A DNA stretch of 64,000 nucleotides from Chloroflexota bacterium (GTDB lineage: Bacteria; Chloroflexota; UBA11872; VXNJ01): contig VXNJ01000001.1 of assembly GCA_009840625.1 (NCBI GenBank), positions 310,001-374,000 of the forward strand. The letters are read 5' to 3'. Shown piece after piece: positions 20,375 through 30,007 of this stretch. The number at the start of each line of letters is the position of its first letter. The stretch's first letter is position 1. Made by a program: the position numbers and the translations under genes. The notes beneath the pieces are model-generated. The model made no database searches and was not told the origin of the DNA. It saw only the letters and a program-made list of their open reading frames with translations.

Positions 20375-21205
20375 GTGGGTGTTTGCGCAAGCGTTCCCCG
20401 GCAAGGAGAGATCGTAACCGAATTGGCGACCATTCCGGCTGCCCGGGAGAGTCTCGGGAAGAGCTTTCGCACCGACCGCTGGTGGGTGGAACCACTGCGG
20501 TTCGGAGTCATTTTCGGGGCATTCGTCGTCTACGCCACCTGGGCGCTGCTGCAGGGAGCGCAAAACGAGCACCACATCGCCGAGCCGTACCTCTCGCCCC
20601 TTTACGCGCCCAATTTTGCCGGGTTTCCCTGGCCCGACTGGTGGCCGGATTGGCTGCGCACGCCGGCCCTGCTGATCCTCTGGGCGCCGCTCGGCTTTAG
20701 GCTCACCTGCTACTACTACCGGCGATCCTACTACCGCTCCTACTTTCTATCGCCACCGGCATGCGCGGTCGGACGGCTGAACATTCCCTACCACGGTGAG
20801 CGCGGTCTGCTCCTGTTGCAGAACCTGCATCGCTACTTCGTGCCCTTCGCGGTGGCCCTGGTGGTGATTAACCTCCACGACACCGTCCTGGCTTTCTTTT
20901 TCAGCAACGGCTTCGGCATCGGCCTCGGGACCTTGATCCTGATCGTCAACGTCATCGGACTGGCCGGGTACACCTTCGGGTGCCATTCGCTGCGACACAT
21001 GGTGGGGGGCGGTCTGGACTGCTTCTCCTGCTCCTTGGCGGCGCGAACGCGCGGGCGCCTATGGCAGGTGGTGACAAAGTTCAACGAGAACCACGGCGCC
21101 TGGGCGTGGTTCTCGCTCGTCTGGATCGGATTCGCCGACTTTTACGTGCGCCTGGTCTCGTCTGGAGTAATCGGCGATCCGCGGCTGATTCTCATTTCGG
21201 CATGA
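20375..21205 (+). CDS. sdhC: Succinate dehydrogenase membrane subunit, mycobacterial Sdh1-like
   Basis: A protein of up to 276 residues with five hydrophobic helices (about 42-62, 93-115, 148-172, 176-200 and 235-255). Several histidines near helix ends (LHRYF, LHDT, HSLRHM) could ligate heme. Length and position directly before sdhA match the single membrane subunit of the mycobacterial Sdh1 type. It anchors the SdhAB dimer and passes electrons to quinone. The stop overlaps the sdhA start as ATGA. The start is uncertain: GTG at 20375 has no Shine-Dalgarno, while GGAG at 20405 precedes a TTG at 20423 by an overlong 14 bases. Confidence 0.8.
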   Translation: MGVCASVPRQGEIVTELATIPAARESLGKSFRTDRWWVEPLRFGVIFGAFVVYATWALLQGAQNEHHIAEPYLSPLYAPNFAGFPWPDWWPDWLRTPALLILWAPLGFRLTCYYYRRSYYRSYFLSPPACAVGRLNIPYHGERGLLLLQNLHRYFVPFAVALVVINLHDTVLAFFFSNGFGIGLGTLILIVNVIGLAGYTFGCHSLRHMVGGGLDCFSCSLAARTRGRLWQVVTKFNENHGAWAWFSLVWIGFADFYVRLVSSGVIGDPRLILISA

Positions 21206-23004
21206 ACACGCCCGAACCCGAGCGGCTCGCCTACGACGTGCTGGTCATCGGAGCCGGCGGGGCCGGACTGCGGGCCGCTATCGAGGCCAGCGCGAGCGGC
21301 GCCAGCGTCGGGGTGATCTGCAAGTCGCTGCTCGGCAAAGCCCACACAGTTATGGCCGAGGGCGGGATGGCGGCGGCGCTCCAGAACACCGACAAGCGCG
21401 ATTCCTGGCAAGTCCACTTTCGCGACACCATGCGCGGCGGCAAGCACCTGAACCAGTGGCGGATGGCCCAGATCCACGCCCTGGAGGCCCCCGACCGGGT
21501 CCGCGAATTGGAAGCCTGGGGTGCGGTGTTCGACCGCACCGACGACGGCCTGATCCTGCAGCGAAATTTTGGTGGCCACCGTTATCCGCGGCTGGCTCAC
21601 GTCGGCGACCGGACCGGCCTGGAGATGATCCGCACCCTGCAGGACCACGGCGTCCACCAGGGCCTTGAGGTGCACATGGAATGCACCGTCACCGGATTGC
21701 TGGTCGAAGGCGGCCGGGTGGTCGGGGCGCTCGCCTTCCAGCGCGCCGACGGGAAGCTCCTCGCAATCGCCGCCAGCGCGGTGGTCGTGGCCACCGGCGG
21801 AGCCTGCCGGGCCTGGGCGATCAATACCAATTCCTGGGAAGGGACCGGCGACGGTCACGCCCTGGCGCTTGACGCCGGCGCCGAACTGATAGACATGGAG
21901 TTCGTCCAATTCCATCCGACCGGTATGGTCTGGCCGCCCTCGGTGCGGGGGATCCTGGTCACCGAGGCGGTCCGCGGCGAAGGCGGGATCCTGCGCAACC
22001 GGTCCGGGCAGCGCTTCATGTTCGACAACGTGCCGGAGATGTTCGAGGGCGAATTCGCCGAGGACGAGTCCGAGACCCGACGCTGGCTGGAAGGGGACCA
22101 GCAGGCGCGCCGGCCTCCGGAGCTGTTGACCCGTGACGAGGTGGCGCGGGCGATCCTGCGCCAGGTCGGAGCCGGCGAGGGCTCGCCCCACGGCGGCGTC
22201 TTCCTCGACATCGCCTCGCAGCGCTCCGCCGACGACATCCGGTCGCGCCTGCCCTCGATGTATCACCAGTTCACTGAACTGGCGCAGGTGGACATTACCA
22301 AGACCCCGATGGAGGTCGGCCCCACCGCCCACTACATCATGGGCGGTATTCGGGTTGAATCGGAGTCCCAGGCCTCAAGCCTGCCGGGGCTGTTCGCGGC
22401 CGGGGAAGCGGCCGGCGGAATGCACGGGGCCAACCGCCTGGGCGGCAACTCGCTGACCGATCTCCTGGTCTTCGGCAAGCGGGCCGGCGAGCACGCCGCC
22501 CAGTACGCCCTTGAATGCGGTTCCCCGCCCAAGCCGGCGGCGGCAACGGTCGAATCGGCGGTGGCCCGCGCACTGTCGCCGTTTGCGGCCGAGGGCGCCG
22601 AGAACCCCTTCGCGCTCCTCTCGGAGCTGCAGGAAATGATGGACCGCAAGGTCGGCATCATCCGCCGCCAAAGGGACCTGGAATCGGCCCTCGGCGACCT
22701 GGAAGAACTAGCCGCGCGGTCGGCGTCGGCCCCGGTCCGCGGCGGGCGCGCCTACAACGTCGCCTGGCAACAGGCGATCGACCTGCGCAACGTCCTGACC
22801 GTTGCCCGGGCCTGCGCGCTGGCCGGGCTGGCCCGCACCGAGAGCCGCGGGGCCCATACCCGCGACGATTACCCCTTAACCGATCCCGAGTGGGGCGACT
22901 ACTCGGTCATCGTGGGCCCTTCGGCCGACGGGCCGCTGCGCGTGCGGCGCTCCCGGCTGGAGAAGCCGCCGCCCGAGTTTCAAGCCATCATCGACGGGGA
23001 ATAG
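21202..23004 (+). CDS. sdhA: Succinate dehydrogenase flavoprotein subunit
   Basis: A 600-residue flavoprotein. The FAD fold VIGAGGAGLRAAIEA (about 14) is followed by KAHTVMAEGGMAAAL, in which the His is the covalent flavin attachment site. The dicarboxylate residues are all in place: His in FHPTG (about 237), the proton-shuttle Arg in TEAVRGEGG, His in HYIMGG (about 375) and Arg in GANRLGGNSL (about 411). The C-terminal TESRGAHTRDDYP is also conserved. It oxidises succinate to fumarate on the inner face of the membrane. It overlaps sdhC by 4 bases and is followed by sdhB after 6. This canonical copy is the reference against which the divergent copy at 25492 should be read. Confidence 0.95.
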   Translation: MNTPEPERLAYDVLVIGAGGAGLRAAIEASASGASVGVICKSLLGKAHTVMAEGGMAAALQNTDKRDSWQVHFRDTMRGGKHLNQWRMAQIHALEAPDRVRELEAWGAVFDRTDDGLILQRNFGGHRYPRLAHVGDRTGLEMIRTLQDHGVHQGLEVHMECTVTGLLVEGGRVVGALAFQRADGKLLAIAASAVVVATGGACRAWAINTNSWEGTGDGHALALDAGAELIDMEFVQFHPTGMVWPPSVRGILVTEAVRGEGGILRNRSGQRFMFDNVPEMFEGEFAEDESETRRWLEGDQQARRPPELLTRDEVARAILRQVGAGEGSPHGGVFLDIASQRSADDIRSRLPSMYHQFTELAQVDITKTPMEVGPTAHYIMGGIRVESESQASSLPGLFAAGEAAGGMHGANRLGGNSLTDLLVFGKRAGEHAAQYALECGSPPKPAAATVESAVARALSPFAAEGAENPFALLSELQEMMDRKVGIIRRQRDLESALGDLEELAARSASAPVRGGRAYNVAWQQAIDLRNVLTVARACALAGLARTESRGAHTRDDYPLTDPEWGDYSVIVGPSADGPLRVRRSRLEKPPPEFQAIIDGE

Positions 23005-23010
23005 CGCCGC

Positions 23011-23769
23011 ATGTCGGATAGCGCCACATTGCGAGTCCAGCGTGGCAACACGCAAAAGCCCGAATTCGAGGATTTTCAGGTCCCGCTTGAAGAGGGGATG
23101 GTGGTGCTCGACGCCCTGCACTGGATCCAGGCCAACGCCGATCCCTCGCTGGCCTGCCGCTGGAACTGCAAGGCCGGCAAATGCGGGTCCTGCTCGGTCG
23201 AAATAAACGGGCGACCCAAATTGGCCTGCATGACCGGCTTTCACGAGATCGACGTCGAAAAACCCGTGTACGTCACTCCCCTGCGCGCCTTTCCAGTCAT
23301 CACCGATCTGGTCGCCGACGTGAGCTGGAACTACCGCGCCAAGCAAAGCGTCAAAGGGTTTTCACCGCGGCCGCAAACCGAGGAGGAGCGCTCTGCCGGG
23401 GGTTGGCGGATGCAGCAGCGCGACATCGACCGGGTCCAGGAATTTAGAAAGTGCATCGAGTGCTTCCTGTGCCAGGATGTCTGTCACGTGCTGCGGGCCA
23501 GCGCCCTGCACCAGGAATTCGTCGGTCCGCGGCTGCTGATCCATGCCGCCGCGCTGGAGATGCACCCGTTGGATAACGCCGACCGCCGCTCGGACCTTCG
23601 CGAGAGCCACGGAATCGGTTTCTGCAACATCACCAAGTGCTGCACCGACGTCTGCCCCGAGGGCATAAAGATTACCGACAACGCGATCATCCCGTTGAAG
23701 GAACGCGTCGCCGACGACGCCTACGATCCCGTCCGCAAGCTGCTGGGGCTGTTGACCGGCAACCGCTGA
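23011..23769 (+). CDS. sdhB: Succinate dehydrogenase iron-sulfur subunit
   Basis: A 252-residue protein carrying all three cluster motifs: CRWNCKAGKCGSC with a downstream Cys for [2Fe-2S] (about 50-75), and CIECFLCQDVC (about 148-158) with CNITKCCTDVCP (about 209-220) for [4Fe-4S] and [3Fe-4S]. It relays electrons from the SdhA flavin to the membrane quinone site. It converges with mdh, 18 bases between stops. sdhCAB is a compact three-gene operon without a second membrane subunit. Confidence 0.95.
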   Translation: MSDSATLRVQRGNTQKPEFEDFQVPLEEGMVVLDALHWIQANADPSLACRWNCKAGKCGSCSVEINGRPKLACMTGFHEIDVEKPVYVTPLRAFPVITDLVADVSWNYRAKQSVKGFSPRPQTEEERSAGGWRMQQRDIDRVQEFRKCIECFLCQDVCHVLRASALHQEFVGPRLLIHAAALEMHPLDNADRRSDLRESHGIGFCNITKCCTDVCPEGIKITDNAIIPLKERVADDAYDPVRKLLGLLTGNR

Positions 23770-23787: not shown

Positions 23788-24714
23788 TTAGATCCCCATA
23801 ACTTCGATAAGTTCGCGTACCGCCGCAGCCGAACCGCGCAGGCCGGCCAGCTCGGTCTCGTCGAGCTGGAGGTCGACGATTTCCTCGACTCCGCCGGCCC
23901 CGAGTTTGACCAGCACGCCGACGAAGGTTTCGCTGATGCCGAATTCGCCATCCAGCATGACCGCGCAGGGGAAAAGCCGCTTCTGATCAAGAAGGATCGC
24001 GTCGACCATCATCGCGCAGGCTTCGCCGGGCGCTTCGAACGCGCCACCCGTCTTCATCAGACCGACTATTTCCCCGCCGCCGTTGCTGGTTCGATCGATG
24101 ATCTGATCCAGCCGTTCGGGCGCGATCAGGTCCCGGATCGGGATCCCGTTCACGCTCGTGTAGCTTGGCACCGGGACCATGGTGTCCCCGTGCCCGCCGA
24201 GTACGAATCCGGAGACGTCGGCCGGCGAGACCCCCAGTTCCCAGGCCAGGAAGGTGCGAAAGCGCGAGGTGTCCAGGATCCCGCCCTGGCCAATGACGCG
24301 CTCGCGCGGAAAACCCGATACGTGCATGGCCAGCTGCGCCATGGCGTCCATCGGATTGGAGAGGATCACCAGCGTGGTATCCGGCGACCGCCGCACCAAT
24401 TCGGTGGTGACTTCTTCGACGATCGCCTTGTTCGCCAGCAGCAGGTCGTCGCGGCTCATGCCGGGCCGGCGCGGAAATCCGGATGTGACGACGCACACCG
24501 ACGATCCGGCGGTGTCGTCGTAGGAATTGCTGCCCAGCATGGTGGTCGGATAGCCTGCCAGCGCCGCGGCGTGATTCAGGTCCAGCGCCTTGCCCTGCGG
24601 CAGGCCTTCGACGATGTCGAGCAGTACCACGTCGGCGTATCCCCGCTCGGCCACTCGACGGGCGGTCGAACCGCCGGTGGCGCCGGCGCCGACCACGGTT
24701 ACTTTGGGTCGCAT
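23788..24714 (-). CDS. mdh: Malate dehydrogenase, LDH-like type
   Basis: A 308-residue NAD-dependent dehydrogenase. GAGATGGSTA (about 9-18) is the nucleotide loop, LLDIVEG supplies the acidic residue favouring NAD, and SGFPRRPGMSRDDLL (about 78-92) contains the substrate-binding arginines of malate rather than lactate dehydrogenases. GGHGDTMVP (about 173-181) holds the catalytic His. It resembles the LDH-like malate dehydrogenases of Chloroflexus and Bacillus. It is the last gene of a same-strand run sucC-sucD-X-Y-mdh, with 67 bases separating it from Y. Confidence 0.93.
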   Translation of the reverse strand: MRPKVTVVGAGATGGSTARRVAERGYADVVLLDIVEGLPQGKALDLNHAAALAGYPTTMLGSNSYDDTAGSSVCVVTSGFPRRPGMSRDDLLLANKAIVEEVTTELVRRSPDTTLVILSNPMDAMAQLAMHVSGFPRERVIGQGGILDTSRFRTFLAWELGVSPADVSGFVLGGHGDTMVPVPSYTSVNGIPIRDLIAPERLDQIIDRTSNGGGEIVGLMKTGGAFEAPGEACAMMVDAILLDQKRLFPCAVMLDGEFGISETFVGVLVKLGAGGVEEIVDLQLDETELAGLRGSAAAVRELIEVMGI

Positions 24715-24781: not shown

Positions 24782-25495
24782 CTAGCCCGGATTGCGAAAT
24801 CCGTTTAGTTCGGCTGCCCGCCGCAGCTTGTCGATTTGGGCAAATGGAGCCAGGTGGTAAGGACAGGGATCGGATGCAAATTGGGCGAGATTGAGCCGCC
24901 ACATGCCGTTCGGGCCGACCGCCATTTCCAATCGCTCGCGGTCGAAATCGTCGCGCACGTCGGCGGCGAGCCGGTAGGTCTTGAGCAGGTAGGCGGCACC
25001 GAGAAAATCCACGTCCACGCCGCGCACGGCGGCATCGCAAATCCCGCAGCCGTTGCAGAATTCGCTGCGCTGCAGCCGGTCCAGTTCCTCGCGGGTCATG
25101 GGCGTTGGGCGTTCGGGGTCGGGGGCATCAACCCGCTGCATCCAGGGCGAGAGCCGGGCCAGCCGATTGCGGGAGATTTCGCCGTCAACTACCAGGTCAA
25201 CAATGACCGCGTGATTGGACAGCGGTCCGATTCGGATTTCTTCGCCCGCGGACGGCAGCGGTTCGCGGACCGGCAGAACCGGCCGGCCGTTCAGGGTTAC
25301 CGCGCCGACGCCCGAGAATCCCCCCGGTTCCGCCTCGCGGAACCGCAGCGAACCGTCCTGTTCGTCGCGCACCTGGACCAGCGCGTCCTGCAGGGTCATA
25401 CCCGGTTCGGTGCGGATCGTGTAGCTGCGCCAGCTCGGTGCCGGGTCGGTCTCGGGGTCGTAGCGGGCGATGCTGAGTTCGGTCTGGGAAATCAC
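24782..25495 (-). CDS. Divergent SdhB-like protein retaining only the [4Fe-4S] ligands
   Basis: A 237-residue protein alignable with SdhB along its length. In place of CRWNCKAGKCGSC it reads LRFREAEPGGFSG, followed by the still recognisable TLNGRPVLP, so all [2Fe-2S] cysteines are gone. The helical domain keeps FCNGCGIC (three cysteines, about 149-155) but has Val where the fourth cysteine of that motif would be. The last motif keeps only the final Cys of DPCP. By E. coli SdhB numbering the survivors equal Cys149, 152, 155 and 216, the [4Fe-4S] ligands; the [3Fe-4S] ligands are lost. The GTG start overlaps the flavoprotein stop by 4 bases (GTGA). No membrane subunit adjoins. Function unknown; probably a one-cluster partner of the flavoprotein. 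Confidence 0.8.
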   Translation of the reverse strand: MISQTELSIARYDPETDPAPSWRSYTIRTEPGMTLQDALVQVRDEQDGSLRFREAEPGGFSGVGAVTLNGRPVLPVREPLPSAGEEIRIGPLSNHAVIVDLVVDGEISRNRLARLSPWMQRVDAPDPERPTPMTREELDRLQRSEFCNGCGICDAAVRGVDVDFLGAAYLLKTYRLAADVRDDFDRERLEMAVGPNGMWRLNLAQFASDPCPYHLAPFAQIDKLRRAAELNGFRNPG

Positions 25496-27057
25496 GCCGG
25501 AACCTCCGCCGCCGCCGGCTCATAATCCGCCCACCGGTCGCTGCGCCAGCCGGACGCGGAAAACCGAATCGCGCTGTGGTCGGCGAAATCGGCGTCGGCG
25601 TTCGGGAAATCTGCGCGCTGGTGCGGCCCCCGCGATTCCCGGCGCGAACCGGCCCCGGCGGCGATCGCCGCCGCCGTAACCACGCCCTGGCGCAATTCCA
25701 GCAGACGGACCAGTTCGAGGTTGAAATGGTAGCCGGAACTGGCCGGTGCGGCGCGGCGCGCAAGATCGCCGATTTCGGCGATTTGATCGGCGGCCGCGGC
25801 CAGGCCGCTTACATCGCGTCCCAGACCCAGGTTCGAACTCATCAGGCCGCGGAGCCGGTTCCAGAGAACCGCCGGGTCGATGCTCGAATCGCCGGCCAGC
25901 GTCAGCTGAATTCCTTCCTGGGCCCGCCAGCGGACGCTTTCGGACAGGGCGGCCGGACGCGGATCGATCCGGGACACCGCCGACTTGGCCGAAAGCAATA
26001 GGTCCAACAGCGCATTGCCGGGTAGCAATCCGGCCCCGTGCAGGGACCCGGCGGCCGCCTCGCCGGCCGCGTGCAGTCCCGGGATGCCGGTGTCCGGGGC
26101 GATTCCGCCCAGCGCAAAGTGTGCGCTGGGGACAACCGCCGCGCCGAAGTAATCGTCCAGCAGCCCGCGCAGTTCGGGCGCGAAAAGTTCCAACTCCTCG
26201 ACGCAGTCCGAGAAATCAACTCTCGAACCGCCGCCGGGATCCAACGCCCGGGCAACCGCGCCCAGGGCAATACCGTCCGGTTCGGATCTGAGGCCCGAAT
26301 AGCGCGCGCCGGCAGCGGCAGCGGCGTCACCGATCACGGCCCCGGCAGCGGCCGGTGAGCTGGAGACCAATCCGGGAACGAATTCGACCAGCTCGGGGTC
26401 GAGCAGAACCGCGCCGGCTGCCGCCGCCAGGGATTGCGCGGTTCCCGCGCTGTGGCGCGCATTGCCGCTGACCGAATACAGGCCTCCGACGGCCCCGTCG
26501 GTAAGGAGCACGTTGCCGCATGCGAATGCCTGCACCTGCCCCGACCGGATGTTGAGCGCGGTCAAACCGCTGACCCCGACTTCATCCATGTGGAGCTCCA
26601 GCGGCAGCCACTCGAAGTAGCCATCGATCGCGTAGCCGCAGGCCTGATCGAGCAGCGAGTTCAGCACCGCGCGACCGGTCCACCACCCCGCCCGCAGGCT
26701 GTAGTCACCGCTGTTTTGTCCCAGCCGGAACGTCTGCAGCCCGCCATCGGCGGAGCGCGCGTAGGCGGCCCCCATGTGCTCGGTGGCCACGGCCTCGGCC
26801 ACCGCTGCGTCAGCGGATCGCGAAACGGCCGCGGCATCGGCCAGTCCGGATCCGGCGGCGAGCGCGTCGGAGCGGAACTGCTCGATCTGGGAATCGCCGG
26901 CGGGAGCGTTCAGGCCGTCGCGGATGTTCCCGTCATGGTGCGCGCCGAAGGGGGCTCGCGATATCAGGGCCACCGACAGGTCTGATTCAGCGGCGGCAAT
27001 GGCGGCGCGCAGTCCGGCGATACCGCCGCCCACCACCACCAAGTCGTATTCAATCAA
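25492..27057 (-). CDS. Divergent SdhA-like flavoprotein, dicarboxylate site largely lost
   Basis: A 521-residue FAD protein related to SdhA/fumarate reductase/aspartate oxidase. VVVGGGIAGLRAAIAA begins about residue 7, and the C-terminal ESRGPHQRADFPN is conserved. The substrate residues differ from the canonical copy: FHPTG is replaced by FVPG, the TEAVRGEGG arginine region by GDAAAAAGA, and the Arg of GANRLGGN by Leu in GAGLLPGN. The His of HFALGG is kept. It is about 80 residues shorter than SdhA. The start was placed at a TTG just before IEYDLVVVGGG; a GTG at 27129 would add 24 residues. It is coupled to the iron-sulfur gene and lies 128 bases after sucD. It is unlikely to be a succinate dehydrogenase. 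Confidence 0.8.
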   Translation of the reverse strand: MIEYDLVVVGGGIAGLRAAIAAAESDLSVALISRAPFGAHHDGNIRDGLNAPAGDSQIEQFRSDALAAGSGLADAAAVSRSADAAVAEAVATEHMGAAYARSADGGLQTFRLGQNSGDYSLRAGWWTGRAVLNSLLDQACGYAIDGYFEWLPLELHMDEVGVSGLTALNIRSGQVQAFACGNVLLTDGAVGGLYSVSGNARHSAGTAQSLAAAAGAVLLDPELVEFVPGLVSSSPAAAGAVIGDAAAAAGARYSGLRSEPDGIALGAVARALDPGGGSRVDFSDCVEELELFAPELRGLLDDYFGAAVVPSAHFALGGIAPDTGIPGLHAAGEAAAGSLHGAGLLPGNALLDLLLSAKSAVSRIDPRPAALSESVRWRAQEGIQLTLAGDSSIDPAVLWNRLRGLMSSNLGLGRDVSGLAAAADQIAEIGDLARRAAPASSGYHFNLELVRLLELRQGVVTAAAIAAGAGSRRESRGPHQRADFPNADADFADHSAIRFSASGWRSDRWADYEPAAAEVPA

Positions 27058-27185: not shown

Positions 27186-28049
27186 TCAGAGTCGGGCGGC
27201 GACCAGATCGCCCGCATGGTCGGGATGACCGGCGATCGCCACACCGGCCGCCGTGAGTGCGGCGATCTTGCCCTCTGCGGCACCGGTGCCGCCGGAAACG
27301 ATCGCGCCGGCGTGACCCATTCGCCGCTCCGGCGGGGCGGCGCGCCCGGCAACGAACCCCACCACCGGCTTGCGACAGACCTCGGCGATGTATTCGGCGG
27401 CCAGCTCCTCGTCGCGGCCGCCGATCTCTCCGATCAGCACCATCGCGTCGATGTCCGGATCGGATTCGTAGAGTGCCAGCGCGTCGACGAACGAGAGCCC
27501 TTTGATCGGATCGCCGCCGATTCCAAGGCAGAGGCCCTGGCCGATTCCGCGGTCGGAGAGGGCCTGGATGACCTCGTAAGTCAGGGTTCCTGATCGGGAC
27601 ACGACGCCGACCCGGCCGGGTTGGGCGATATCGCCGGGGATTATGCCGAGCTTGGTCTGTCCGGGAAGGATCAGGCCCGGGCAGTTCGGCCCCAGGATCC
27701 TTGCGCCGCGGGCCCTCGCGAAGGCGAGCATCCGCGCGCAGTCCAGCACCGGGATCCCTTCGGTGATCACCACTACCAAGTCGATTCCGGCATCGACCTG
27801 TTCGCAGACTGCGTCGGCGGCTGCAAAGGGCGGAACGAAAACCACTCCGGCGTCGATCGCCTGCTCCTGCGTGGCCTCCTCGACGGTGTTGTAAACGGGG
27901 ACCCCGCTAACGGCCTGGCCGCCCCGGCCGGGCACGACCCCGGCAACGATTCGGGCGCCGTATTCGAGCATCAATCCGGCATGGAACGCGCCCTGGCGGC
28001 CGGTGATGCCCTGGACCAGGATCCCGGTTTTCGCGTTGACCAGCACCAA
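27186..28049 (-). CDS. sucD: Succinyl-CoA synthetase alpha subunit
   Basis: A 287-residue subunit. [16 protein letters not shown] (about 17-32) is the CoA-binding loop, [11 protein letters not shown] (about 121-131) is conserved, and the phosphorylated active-site His lies in [12 protein letters not shown] (about 243-254). It forms ADP- or GDP-dependent succinyl-CoA synthetase with SucC. The start is TTG (or the adjacent GTG) preceded by AAGGGA within the end of sucC; 9 bases separate the two genes. Confidence 0.95.
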
Positions 28050-28058
28050 GCGTTTCCC

Positions 28059-29186
28059 TTAACCGGCCAGGGCGACTGCCGCGCGCACCGCTGAGAGCAT
28101 GTCGCGGTGGGCGTTCAGTCCGGCTTCGCGCAGGATTTTCAAGCCTTCGGCCTGATTGGTGCCGACCAGCCTGATCTCCAGCGGCACGCGCCGCGAGAGC
28201 CCGTCGAGGGCCTGGACGATCCCGTGGGCGACGTCGTCGCAGCGGGTGATGCCGCCGAATATGTTCACCAGAACTACCTCGACTTCCGGATCGGCCAGGA
28301 TCAGGTTCATCGCTTTGGCGACCTGGCCGGCGTCGGCGCCCCCGCCCACGTCCAGGAAATTGGCCGGTTCGCCGCCCTCGCTCACAATCACGTCCAGCAG
28401 CGCCATGGCCAGACCGGCGCCATTGACCATGCAGCCGATCGTCCCGTCCAGCTTTACGTAGGAGATCCCCGAATTGCGCGCCTCGGCTTCGGTTGCGGTC
28501 TCCTCTTCCGGGTTGCGCATTTCCCGCAGCTGGGGCTGCCGAAATAGCGCCGAATCGTCGATCGTGATCTTGGCGTCGATCGCCAGCAGTCGGTCCCCGG
28601 ACTGAACCAGCGGGTTGATCTCCACCAGCGAGGCGTCGTTGGAAACCAGGCAATCCACCGTTGCGGTAGCGATCCGGATGAAATCGCCGAGCAACGGGAG
28701 CGGAATGTCGAGCTGGAAAGCGAGCCGGCGGGCTTGGTGCGGCGCCAGTCCGGAATCAACCCCGCAGTCAACGGTGCGGATCGCTTCCGGGTCCTGGGCC
28801 GCGACCGTTTCGATTTCGATTCCCCCCGCGGCCGATGCCATCACCATCAACTGGCCGGATTCGCGGTCGGGGAGAGCCGCCAGGTAGTACTCGGCCGCTA
28901 TGTCGACCGCCTCGGCTACCATCACGTTTTCGACCAGATTGCCGCCGATTTCCAGTCCCAGGATTTCGGCCGCGGCCGCGGCGGCGCCGTCCGGGTCGCT
29001 GGCCAGTTTGACCCCGCCGGCCTTACCGCGTCCGCCGGACAGCACCTGGGCTTTTATCACGACCGGGCCGCCGAGTTCGGCTGCTGCCCGCGCCGCGGCG
29101 GCCGGATCGGCCGCCAGGAGGGCCGCCGGTACCGGGATTCCGCTGTCGGACAGCAGTTGGCGGGATTGGTGTTCGTGGAGCTTCAA
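28059..29186 (-). CDS. sucC: Succinyl-CoA synthetase beta subunit
   Basis: A 375-residue ATP-grasp protein starting [17 protein letters not shown] after a TTG at 29186; a longer frame upstream was rejected because the family begins at this point. [17 protein letters not shown] (about 45-61) is the nucleotide loop, and the C-terminal domain contains [11 protein letters not shown] and [14 protein letters not shown]. It is the first gene of the same-strand run that ends at mdh. No clear promoter was recognised in the roughly 240 bases before it. Confidence 0.95.
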
Positions 29187-29344
29187 TTGCTGCCATCGCA
29201 GGGCCTGAATCGCGCGGACGATTGCCCGAAACGCGGCCCCATTATCGGGGTCGCCGGCGGCGCCCGAGTAATTCGACGGGCTGACGCAATGGTTGAGTAG
29301 TGGCACGCCCCCAGCGCGGGTTACTGTCGTTGGTATCGCCGCGC

Positions 29345-29431
29345 CGGACTCCTATACGCCTGCGCTGGAAGCCGTTCGACCGGGAGATCATCCTGCGGAT
29401 GAAGAGCGGACGACCGCCACACCGCGATTAA
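29345..29431 (+). pseudogene. Possible vestige of an IS6-type transposase
   Basis: One frame of this otherwise empty stretch reads IRLRWKPFDREIILR before a stop at 29431. The block recalls the N-terminal segment of IS6/IS26-family transposases, in which a KWKHF/RWKPF-like motif is followed by an acidic residue and EIIL. The similarity covers only about 12 residues and the expected VRWYLRY continuation is absent. It could be chance. It borders the toxin-antitoxin pair. Confidence 0.2.
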
Positions 29432-29697
29432 GCGACGGGAGTCGCTTCCCGTGCGCGGCGGGCCATTGCCAAGTCGTAACTGGCCTGCCGGCGCATCCAG
29501 AATTCAGCGTTGCTCCAGCCGACGCGCTCTAATGCGAGGGCCACCTCGGGCGATATGCCACATCGTCCGTTCAGCAGCCGAGAGGCCGTGTTCCGGCTGA
29601 CGCCCAGGCGGGCTGCAAATTCGTTGACCGTCCACCCTGCCGCTTCTAGGTCATCCCGCAGACCGGCGGCCGGGTGGGTCGGGTTCTTTGCGCTCAT
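29428..29697 (-). CDS. higA: HigA-type antitoxin (XRE DNA-binding)
   Basis: An 89-residue protein with a lambda-repressor-type helix-turn-helix: WTVNEFAARLGVSRNTASRL (about 21-40), then LNGRCGISPEVALALERV. The C-terminal FWMRRQASYDLAMAR is the family signature of HigA/VapI antitoxins. AGGGA lies 8 bases before the ATG at 29697. It follows the toxin gene by 22 bases, in the toxin-first order typical of higBA. It would neutralise HigB and repress the operon. Confidence 0.9.
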   Translation of the reverse strand: MSAKNPTHPAAGLRDDLEAAGWTVNEFAARLGVSRNTASRLLNGRCGISPEVALALERVGWSNAEFWMRRQASYDLAMARRAREATPVA

Positions 29698-29719
29698 TTG
29701 TGGTCCCTGCTTCCTCCGT

Positions 29720-29992
29720 CTAGTGATAGTCCTCAAGGTCTATGTCCACTGCCTGGCCTTCGACGAACCGGAATGTGATTCGCCAGTTGCCGGAAACCCG
29801 GACGCTCCAGGTGCCACGCCGGTTGCCGCGCAGCTGATGCAAGCGGTAGCTGGGTCGGCGCATGTCCGCTGGCTGGATGGCCTGAGCCAAATCGTCCAGG
29901 ATGCGGTTGACGCGGACCACATGCTCAGGATTGATGCGGCGGCCATCGCCACGTTCCCATAATCGCCTCAATCCTACGTGCCTAAACTGCAT
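29720..29992 (-). CDS. higB: HigB-type toxin (RelE/ParE superfamily)
   Basis: A 90-residue protein from the ATG at 29992: MQFRHVGLRRLWERGD, a run ending in HQLRGNRRGTWSVRVSGNWRITFRF (about residues 57-81) and the C-terminal DIDLEDYH are diagnostic of HigB mRNA interferases. The family cleaves mRNA in the ribosomal A site. An upstream in-frame ATG at 30007 would add 5 residues, but a TACAAT hexamer lies between the two ATGs, which favours the inner start, possibly on a leaderless message. The pair sits between sucC and aconitase. Confidence 0.9.
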   Translation of the reverse strand: MQFRHVGLRRLWERGDGRRINPEHVVRVNRILDDLAQAIQPADMRRPSYRLHQLRGNRRGTWSVRVSGNWRITFRFVEGQAVDIDLEDYH

Positions 29993-29997
29993 GGCAA

Positions 29998-30003
29998 ATT
30001 GTA
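29998..30003 (-). promoter_or_regulatory. Candidate -10 element of higBA
   Basis: The minus strand reads TACAAT five bases before the ATG at 29992. At this spacing transcription would begin on or next to the ATG, giving a leaderless toxin message. No convincing -35 hexamer was found 15-19 bases upstream. Confidence 0.35.
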
Positions 30004-30007
30004 CCAT

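Follow-up and report, generated by a model that had tools for sequence, protein, structure and literature searches.

The iron-sulfur subunits of complex II, SdhB and FrdB (E. coli 1nek_B and 1kf6_B; model TIGR00384), share with the SdhB-like protein analyzed here (B') a fold family, a full-length alignment, the four [4Fe-4S] ligands and an adjacent gene for an SdhA-like protein (A'); unlike them, B' is without [2Fe-2S] or [3Fe-4S] ligands, quinone-site residues and a neighboring anchor gene. The E-type SdhABE enzymes and methylmenaquinol:fumarate reductase (PMC2680327) are closest by SdhA identity (44%) and by their position between sucCD and mdh in a genome from another family of the same class (G031, family f4), whereas A'B' lacks the second [4Fe-4S] motif (position 209 is A or D), the SdhB C-terminal extension and a gene for the CCG-domain SdhE. 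SdhB-derived proteins with only part of the three clusters are also known from the split SdhB of Euglenozoa (SdhB-n and SdhB-c; PMC2663770), but there both halves restore three clusters in a working complex II, while no protein here provides the clusters that B' lacks. A' also matches the SdhA-fold flavoprotein family of L-aspartate oxidase (NadB; TIGR00551, 148 bits), although it falls under the cut-off of that model (452 bits), has lost the dicarboxylate arginine and is paired with an SdhB-like gene. The openly licensed papers searched describe no one-cluster SDH-family complex, in agreement with the original prediction, which knew of none.

Cluster ligands of the SdhB-like protein

The window, a 64,000-nucleotide stretch of a Chloroflexota genome, carries the A' and B' genes between those for succinyl-CoA synthetase and malate dehydrogenase (Table 1). 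The coordinates first proposed for B' hold, with the gene on the minus strand; the plus-strand frame at the same positions is not coding. B' scores above the cut-off of the general SdhB model TIGR00384 (129.9 bits against 88) and is matched by Pfam Fer2_3 (58.4 bits against a cut-off of 27), with no match from the Fer4 models. Between sucC and acnA, at 29428-30007 on the minus strand, we also observed a HigB-like toxin gene (PF05015) and an HTH antitoxin-like gene.

Table 1. Features of the window at and around the A'B' locus; ligand positions follow E. coli SdhB numbering.
Feature	Position	Strand	Remarks
Working SDH, mycobacterial Sdh1 type: membrane anchor (20375-21205), SdhA (21202-23004), SdhB (23011-23769)	20375-23769	plus	NF009052, NF005866
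mdh, malate dehydrogenase	23788-24714	minus	Downstream of B' in 4/4 genomes with the pair
B', SdhB-like subunit, 237 aa	24782-25495	minus	GTG start, overlapping the stop of the upstream A' gene (GTGA)
Cys211-Pro212 = E. coli Cys216-Pro, fourth [4Fe-4S] ligand	24860-24865	minus	Alignment
Former [3Fe-4S] ligands 206 and 212 = Leu201, Ala207	24875-24895	minus	Alignment
Former third [3Fe-4S] ligand (159) = Val157	25025-25027	minus	Ungapped motif
C-x2-C-x2-C, three of four [4Fe-4S] ligands: Cys147, 150, 153 = E. coli 149, 152, 155	25037-25057	minus	Invariant in 4/4 orthologues
Former [2Fe-2S] loop, codons 53-77	25265-25339	minus	Alignment; ligands now E, S, G, V; next strand TLNGRPVLP kept
A', SdhA-like flavoprotein, at most 545 aa	25492-27129	minus	Homology with G002 makes TTG at 27057 the likely start (521 aa); overlaps B' at GTGA
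sucD, succinyl-CoA synthetase alpha	27186-28049	minus	Upstream of A' in 4/4 genomes with the pair
sucC, succinyl-CoA synthetase beta	28059-29306	minus	Order sucC-sucD-A'-B'-mdh

B' was aligned with E. coli SdhB, whose numbering is used for the ligands, and 46 other SdhB sequences (MAFFT). Its four cysteines, the only ones in the protein, are exactly the [4Fe-4S] set (C at 149, 152, 155 and 216), so that 4 of 11 ligands are present. All ligands of the other two clusters are gone: the [2Fe-2S] positions 55, 60, 63 and 75 are E, S, G and V, and the [3Fe-4S] positions 159, 206 and 212 are V, L and A, of which 159 is read from the ungapped motif CNGCGICDAAV, MAFFT placing a gap there. On the four retained cysteines, the absence of the [2Fe-2S] cysteines, the V, L and A at the [3Fe-4S] positions and the retention of the strand following the [2Fe-2S] loop, the original prediction proved accurate. 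Random loss of 7 of the 11 ligands would spare the complete [4Fe-4S] set with P = 1/330. At the quinone-site positions (E. coli Pro160, Trp164, His207 and Ile209) B' has a gap, V, N and A; as these positions vary among active SdhB too, the difference weighs little.

Outside the B' orthologue group, the remaining aligned SdhB keep the canonical ligand set, with a single exception in G046 (A at 212); residue 63 is D in E. coli and three Chloroflexota SdhB of the aligned set. The G046 protein (L107:8433-9392) is an E-type SdhB without Cys212 only, and the adjoining SdhA retains His45, His242, Thr254, Arg286, His354 and Arg399.

The SdhA-like partner and parentage of the pair

The roles of substrate-binding, catalytic-threonine and proton-transfer residues in SDH flavoproteins have been described (PMC10238741). 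At His242, Thr254, Arg286, His354 and Arg399 the A' of the window has V, G, L or D (depending on the alignment), H and L, and it is additionally without Asp221 and Ser404, positions matching FAD contacts. With Arg399, His242, Thr254 and Arg286 lost and these two positions changed as well, the FAD-bearing heterodimer of the original prediction becomes doubtful. A' retains the N-terminal dinucleotide motif and Glu388; its capping domain is shortened, to 92 aligned residues where E. coli has 118, and it falls under the TIGR01812 cut-off (208 against 567 bits). A His aligns with the covalent-FAD His45 in the window A' (GAHHDG), with M, G and G in the three orthologues. Across all four A' proteins Arg399 is replaced by L, L, P and P and Asn398 by G (HGANR to HGAG[LP]). 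Arg399 is kept in the other aligned SdhA, the sole other loss being in G103. In that genome, from another Chloroflexota family, a second SdhA-like protein (L140:4826-6571) has a dead active site, with Arg286, His354, Glu388 and Arg399 lost and the motif NGANLLPGN; its gene adjoins an SdhB with all cluster ligands, another SdhB lies elsewhere in the genome, and judging by these residues a dead SdhA may have arisen here independently.

The A' proteins of G002 and G004, two genomes of one genus, retain Thr254, Glu255, Arg286, His354 and the FAD motifs, and Pfam FAD_binding_2 still matches the G002 protein strongly (295 bits). Together with the two clusters kept in these genomes and the low dN/dS of A' (0.135), these features favor a new enzyme, in which A'B' would be a soluble flavoprotein oxidoreductase with non-covalent FAD and another substrate; electrons would pass in G002/G004 from FAD through [2Fe-2S] and [4Fe-4S] to a soluble carrier, and in the window lineage A' would function by itself, as L-aspartate oxidase does, and B' would be a structural partner. 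Best argued for G002/G004, this is nevertheless unlikely for the pair, since the window and G001 proteins have in addition lost Arg286 and the catalytic Thr and have a shorter capping domain, since A' is conserved less well than B', and since no new shared active-site motif was found.

The canonical SDH of the window, whose divergent genes encode a complete enzyme, matches 7d6v (7d6v_B, 2.4e-88; 7d6v_C, 4.1e-50); its SdhB has all 11 ligands and its SdhA all active-site residues. The remaining family members carry a different SDH, common to sister family f2; the window genome therefore seems to have exchanged its SDH and retained A'B', and from this distribution a horizontal replacement is probable. 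The canonical SdhB of the window had served the original prediction as a parent-like reference; being a separately acquired protein of mycobacterial Sdh1 type, it was ruled out as the parent of B'. In a scan of three A'B'-bearing genomes (G000, G001 and G002), each was found to contain exactly one canonical SdhB, as would be compatible with A'B' joining the canonical SDH in a larger respiratory assembly as accessory subunits, like the inactive paralogues in some mitochondrial complexes. We consider such a role highly improbable, because A'B' stayed when the canonical SDH of the window was swapped for an unrelated mycobacterial type and because the anchor-facing part of B' is its least conserved.

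In G031, a 2-oxoacid:ferredoxin oxidoreductase and an sdhA-sdhB-CCG(sdhE) cluster that fits the E-type SQOR definition (PMC2680327) lie between sucCD and mdh, and the identity of 44% noted above is that between A' of G002 and the E-type SdhA of this genome. Synteny and this best match suggest that A'B' may be the remnant of an E-type (SdhABE) enzyme as in G031; the wider SdhA and SdhB trees, which are prone to long-branch attraction, do not place A' or B'. The G031 genes (L041:1828-8912) form a contiguous 2-oxoglutarate-to-oxaloacetate cluster of sucCD, ferredoxin-dependent 2-oxoacid oxidoreductase, sdhABE and mdh, with fumarase apart.

Distribution, order of cluster loss and constraint

A'B' occurs in four of the five genomes examined from the Chloroflexota family of the window, always as sucC-sucD-A'-B'-mdh, and in none of the four does a gene for a membrane anchor or SdhE lie between sucCD and mdh. 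Among about 400 phylum genomes searched no orthologues were found outside this family, and the scores drop from 395 to 213 bits for B' and from 781 to 533 bits for A'. A scan of genome contigs for wider spread returned the G001 record only, and in a plasmid search all records were below 60% identity (31-33% for the five matches listed). The fifth family member, G003, has sucC-sucD-mdh with nothing in between; as it groups with G002/G004 (98/87), the pair was lost there.

The four B' sequences are monophyletic (support 95/91), the orthologues being 43-50% identical to the window protein (50% in G001). The [4Fe-4S] ligands are intact in all four, and Cys159 and Cys212 are lost in all four. Both the [2Fe-2S] and the [4Fe-4S] sets are complete in G002 and G004, where Cys206 also survives by itself. 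Losses common to the window and G001 are those of Cys55 (now Glu), Cys60 (now Ser), Cys75 and Cys206; Cys63 is lost in the window B' and left as a lone residue in G001. The homologue search that the original prediction had called for thus yielded, in G001, an orthologue with the same four cysteines and an A' partner alongside. A sequencing error or pseudogene was ruled out by orthologues with equal pattern and open frames.

Read from these residues, the loss was stepwise, with succinate chemistry and the quinone-side [3Fe-4S] going first, the flavin-side [2Fe-2S] second and [4Fe-4S] never, which is the pattern as when electron transfer is dropped and the cluster that holds the fold stays. That loss respects cluster boundaries is true of the window protein, as the random expectation given above indicates, but not quite of its relatives, with their lone Cys63 (G001) and lone Cys206 (G002/G004).

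Between G002 and G004, dN/dS was 0.135 for A', 0.252 for B', 0.133 for sucC, 0.134 for sucD, 0.058 for mdh and 0.095 for canonical sdhB; the A'B' values are measurable only in this genus, whose B' still has two clusters. The comparison of the window with G001 shows saturated synonymous sites (pS about 0.86, with pN of 0.39 for B' and 0.49 for A'), and third-position GC in B' is 0.77 versus 0.35. As the genomes compared include none close to that of the window, constraint in the one-cluster lineage was judged from domain identities and not from dN/dS. From window to G001, the ferredoxin (Fer2) domain of B' is 55% identical, as against 54% for the canonical SdhB of G001 and G003, whereas residues 203-225, which face the anchor in SDH, are 30% identical (78% in canonical SdhB) and the FAD domain of A' 35% (79% in canonical SdhA). 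B' is therefore clearly constrained outside the quinone side and A' is much looser; the A' branches in the window/G001 lineage are 5.0 and 2.7, compared with a median of 0.32.

When neutral drift of 758 codons was simulated, none of 300 runs kept its frames free of stops once changes per site reached 0.5 or more, whereas the A'B' frames are open in four genomes that have diverged far enough for neutral drift to introduce more than 10 stops. On the evidence of frames and substitutions, A'B' is not a neutral pseudogene. Outcomes named beforehand as speaking against selection are likewise absent: the four cysteines are kept in 4/4 homologues, there are no stop codons, and dN/dS is 0.25 (B') and 0.135 (A') where measurable.

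Under slow decay, A'B' would be what is left of a redundant SDH that is disappearing, with the [4Fe-4S] ligands persisting to the last because this cluster holds the fold and misfolded remnants are harmful. The absence of the pair from G003, the extreme A' branch lengths (with the window A' the most degraded) and the progressive nature of the losses all lean this way, but we regard slow decay as rather unlikely given that the dN/dS of A' equals that of sucC and sucD in G002/G004, that four genomes hold intact frames where many stops would be expected from drift, and that the clusterless Fer2 domain is conserved as much as a working one. The original prediction of selection for a one-cluster protein, as opposed to random decay, is thus partly supported by constraint and by cluster-wise loss; its wording was too strong in view of the stepwise loss, the loss of the pair in G003 and dN/dS values that come only from the two-cluster genus.

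Proposed role of the pair

That A'B' has been preserved by evolution points to what is probably a new, non-respiratory job. The reading we prefer, in which belief and doubt are about evenly balanced, is that A'B' represents a selected, catalytically dead heterodimer derived from SDH, whose [4Fe-4S] would be structural or sensory and which would act as a soluble partner near SucCD/Mdh. The pair would have descended from a complete three-cluster SDH/fumarate-reductase pair, probably of the E-type (SdhABE). In the ancestor of the family, which would also have had an ordinary SDH, it would have lost the substrate-binding Arg399 and the last cluster, with no anchor subunit alongside, and would then have been kept as a dead heterodimer; in the window/G001 lineage [2Fe-2S] would have been lost too, leaving a lone putative [4Fe-4S]. 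This cluster may hold the helical domain of B' together or report redox state, and the pair may be a soluble non-catalytic scaffold or regulator of the neighboring succinyl-CoA-to-malate enzymes.

In the geometry of E. coli SDH (1NEK), the distance from the flavin site to [4Fe-4S] without the [2Fe-2S] relay is more than 20 Å. Since physiological electron transfer is quoted as reaching no farther than 14 Å (PMC7447783), the cluster of the window lineage could hardly take electrons from A' if SDH geometry holds. Structural [4Fe-4S] clusters are known, for example in glutamate synthase (PMC8097209). AlphaFold models of B' and A' (shallow alignments; window and L032 sequences) reached pLDDT of 48 and 41 and were not used. 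Against the pseudoenzyme reading stand the very fast evolution of A' in the window and G001, the loss, in the window A', of residues at FAD-contact positions and the disappearance of the pair from G003.

In its more specific form, which we put forward tentatively and with somewhat more doubt than belief, the preferred reading would make A'B' a bacterial complex II pseudoenzyme, pared to one [4Fe-4S] and serving as a non-respiratory scaffold or redox sensor in a Krebs-cycle gene cluster. The cofactors of complex II subunits do not normally vary, and in the other aligned SdhB the cluster ligands are essentially all retained. A natural series that runs from three clusters through two to one, in which catalytic residues are lost and the genes are under selection, separates the structural need for [4Fe-4S] and for a clusterless ferredoxin fold from electron transfer, and with this pair it may become possible to test whether a Krebs-cycle enzyme has turned into a pseudoenzyme within the gene cluster to which it belongs.
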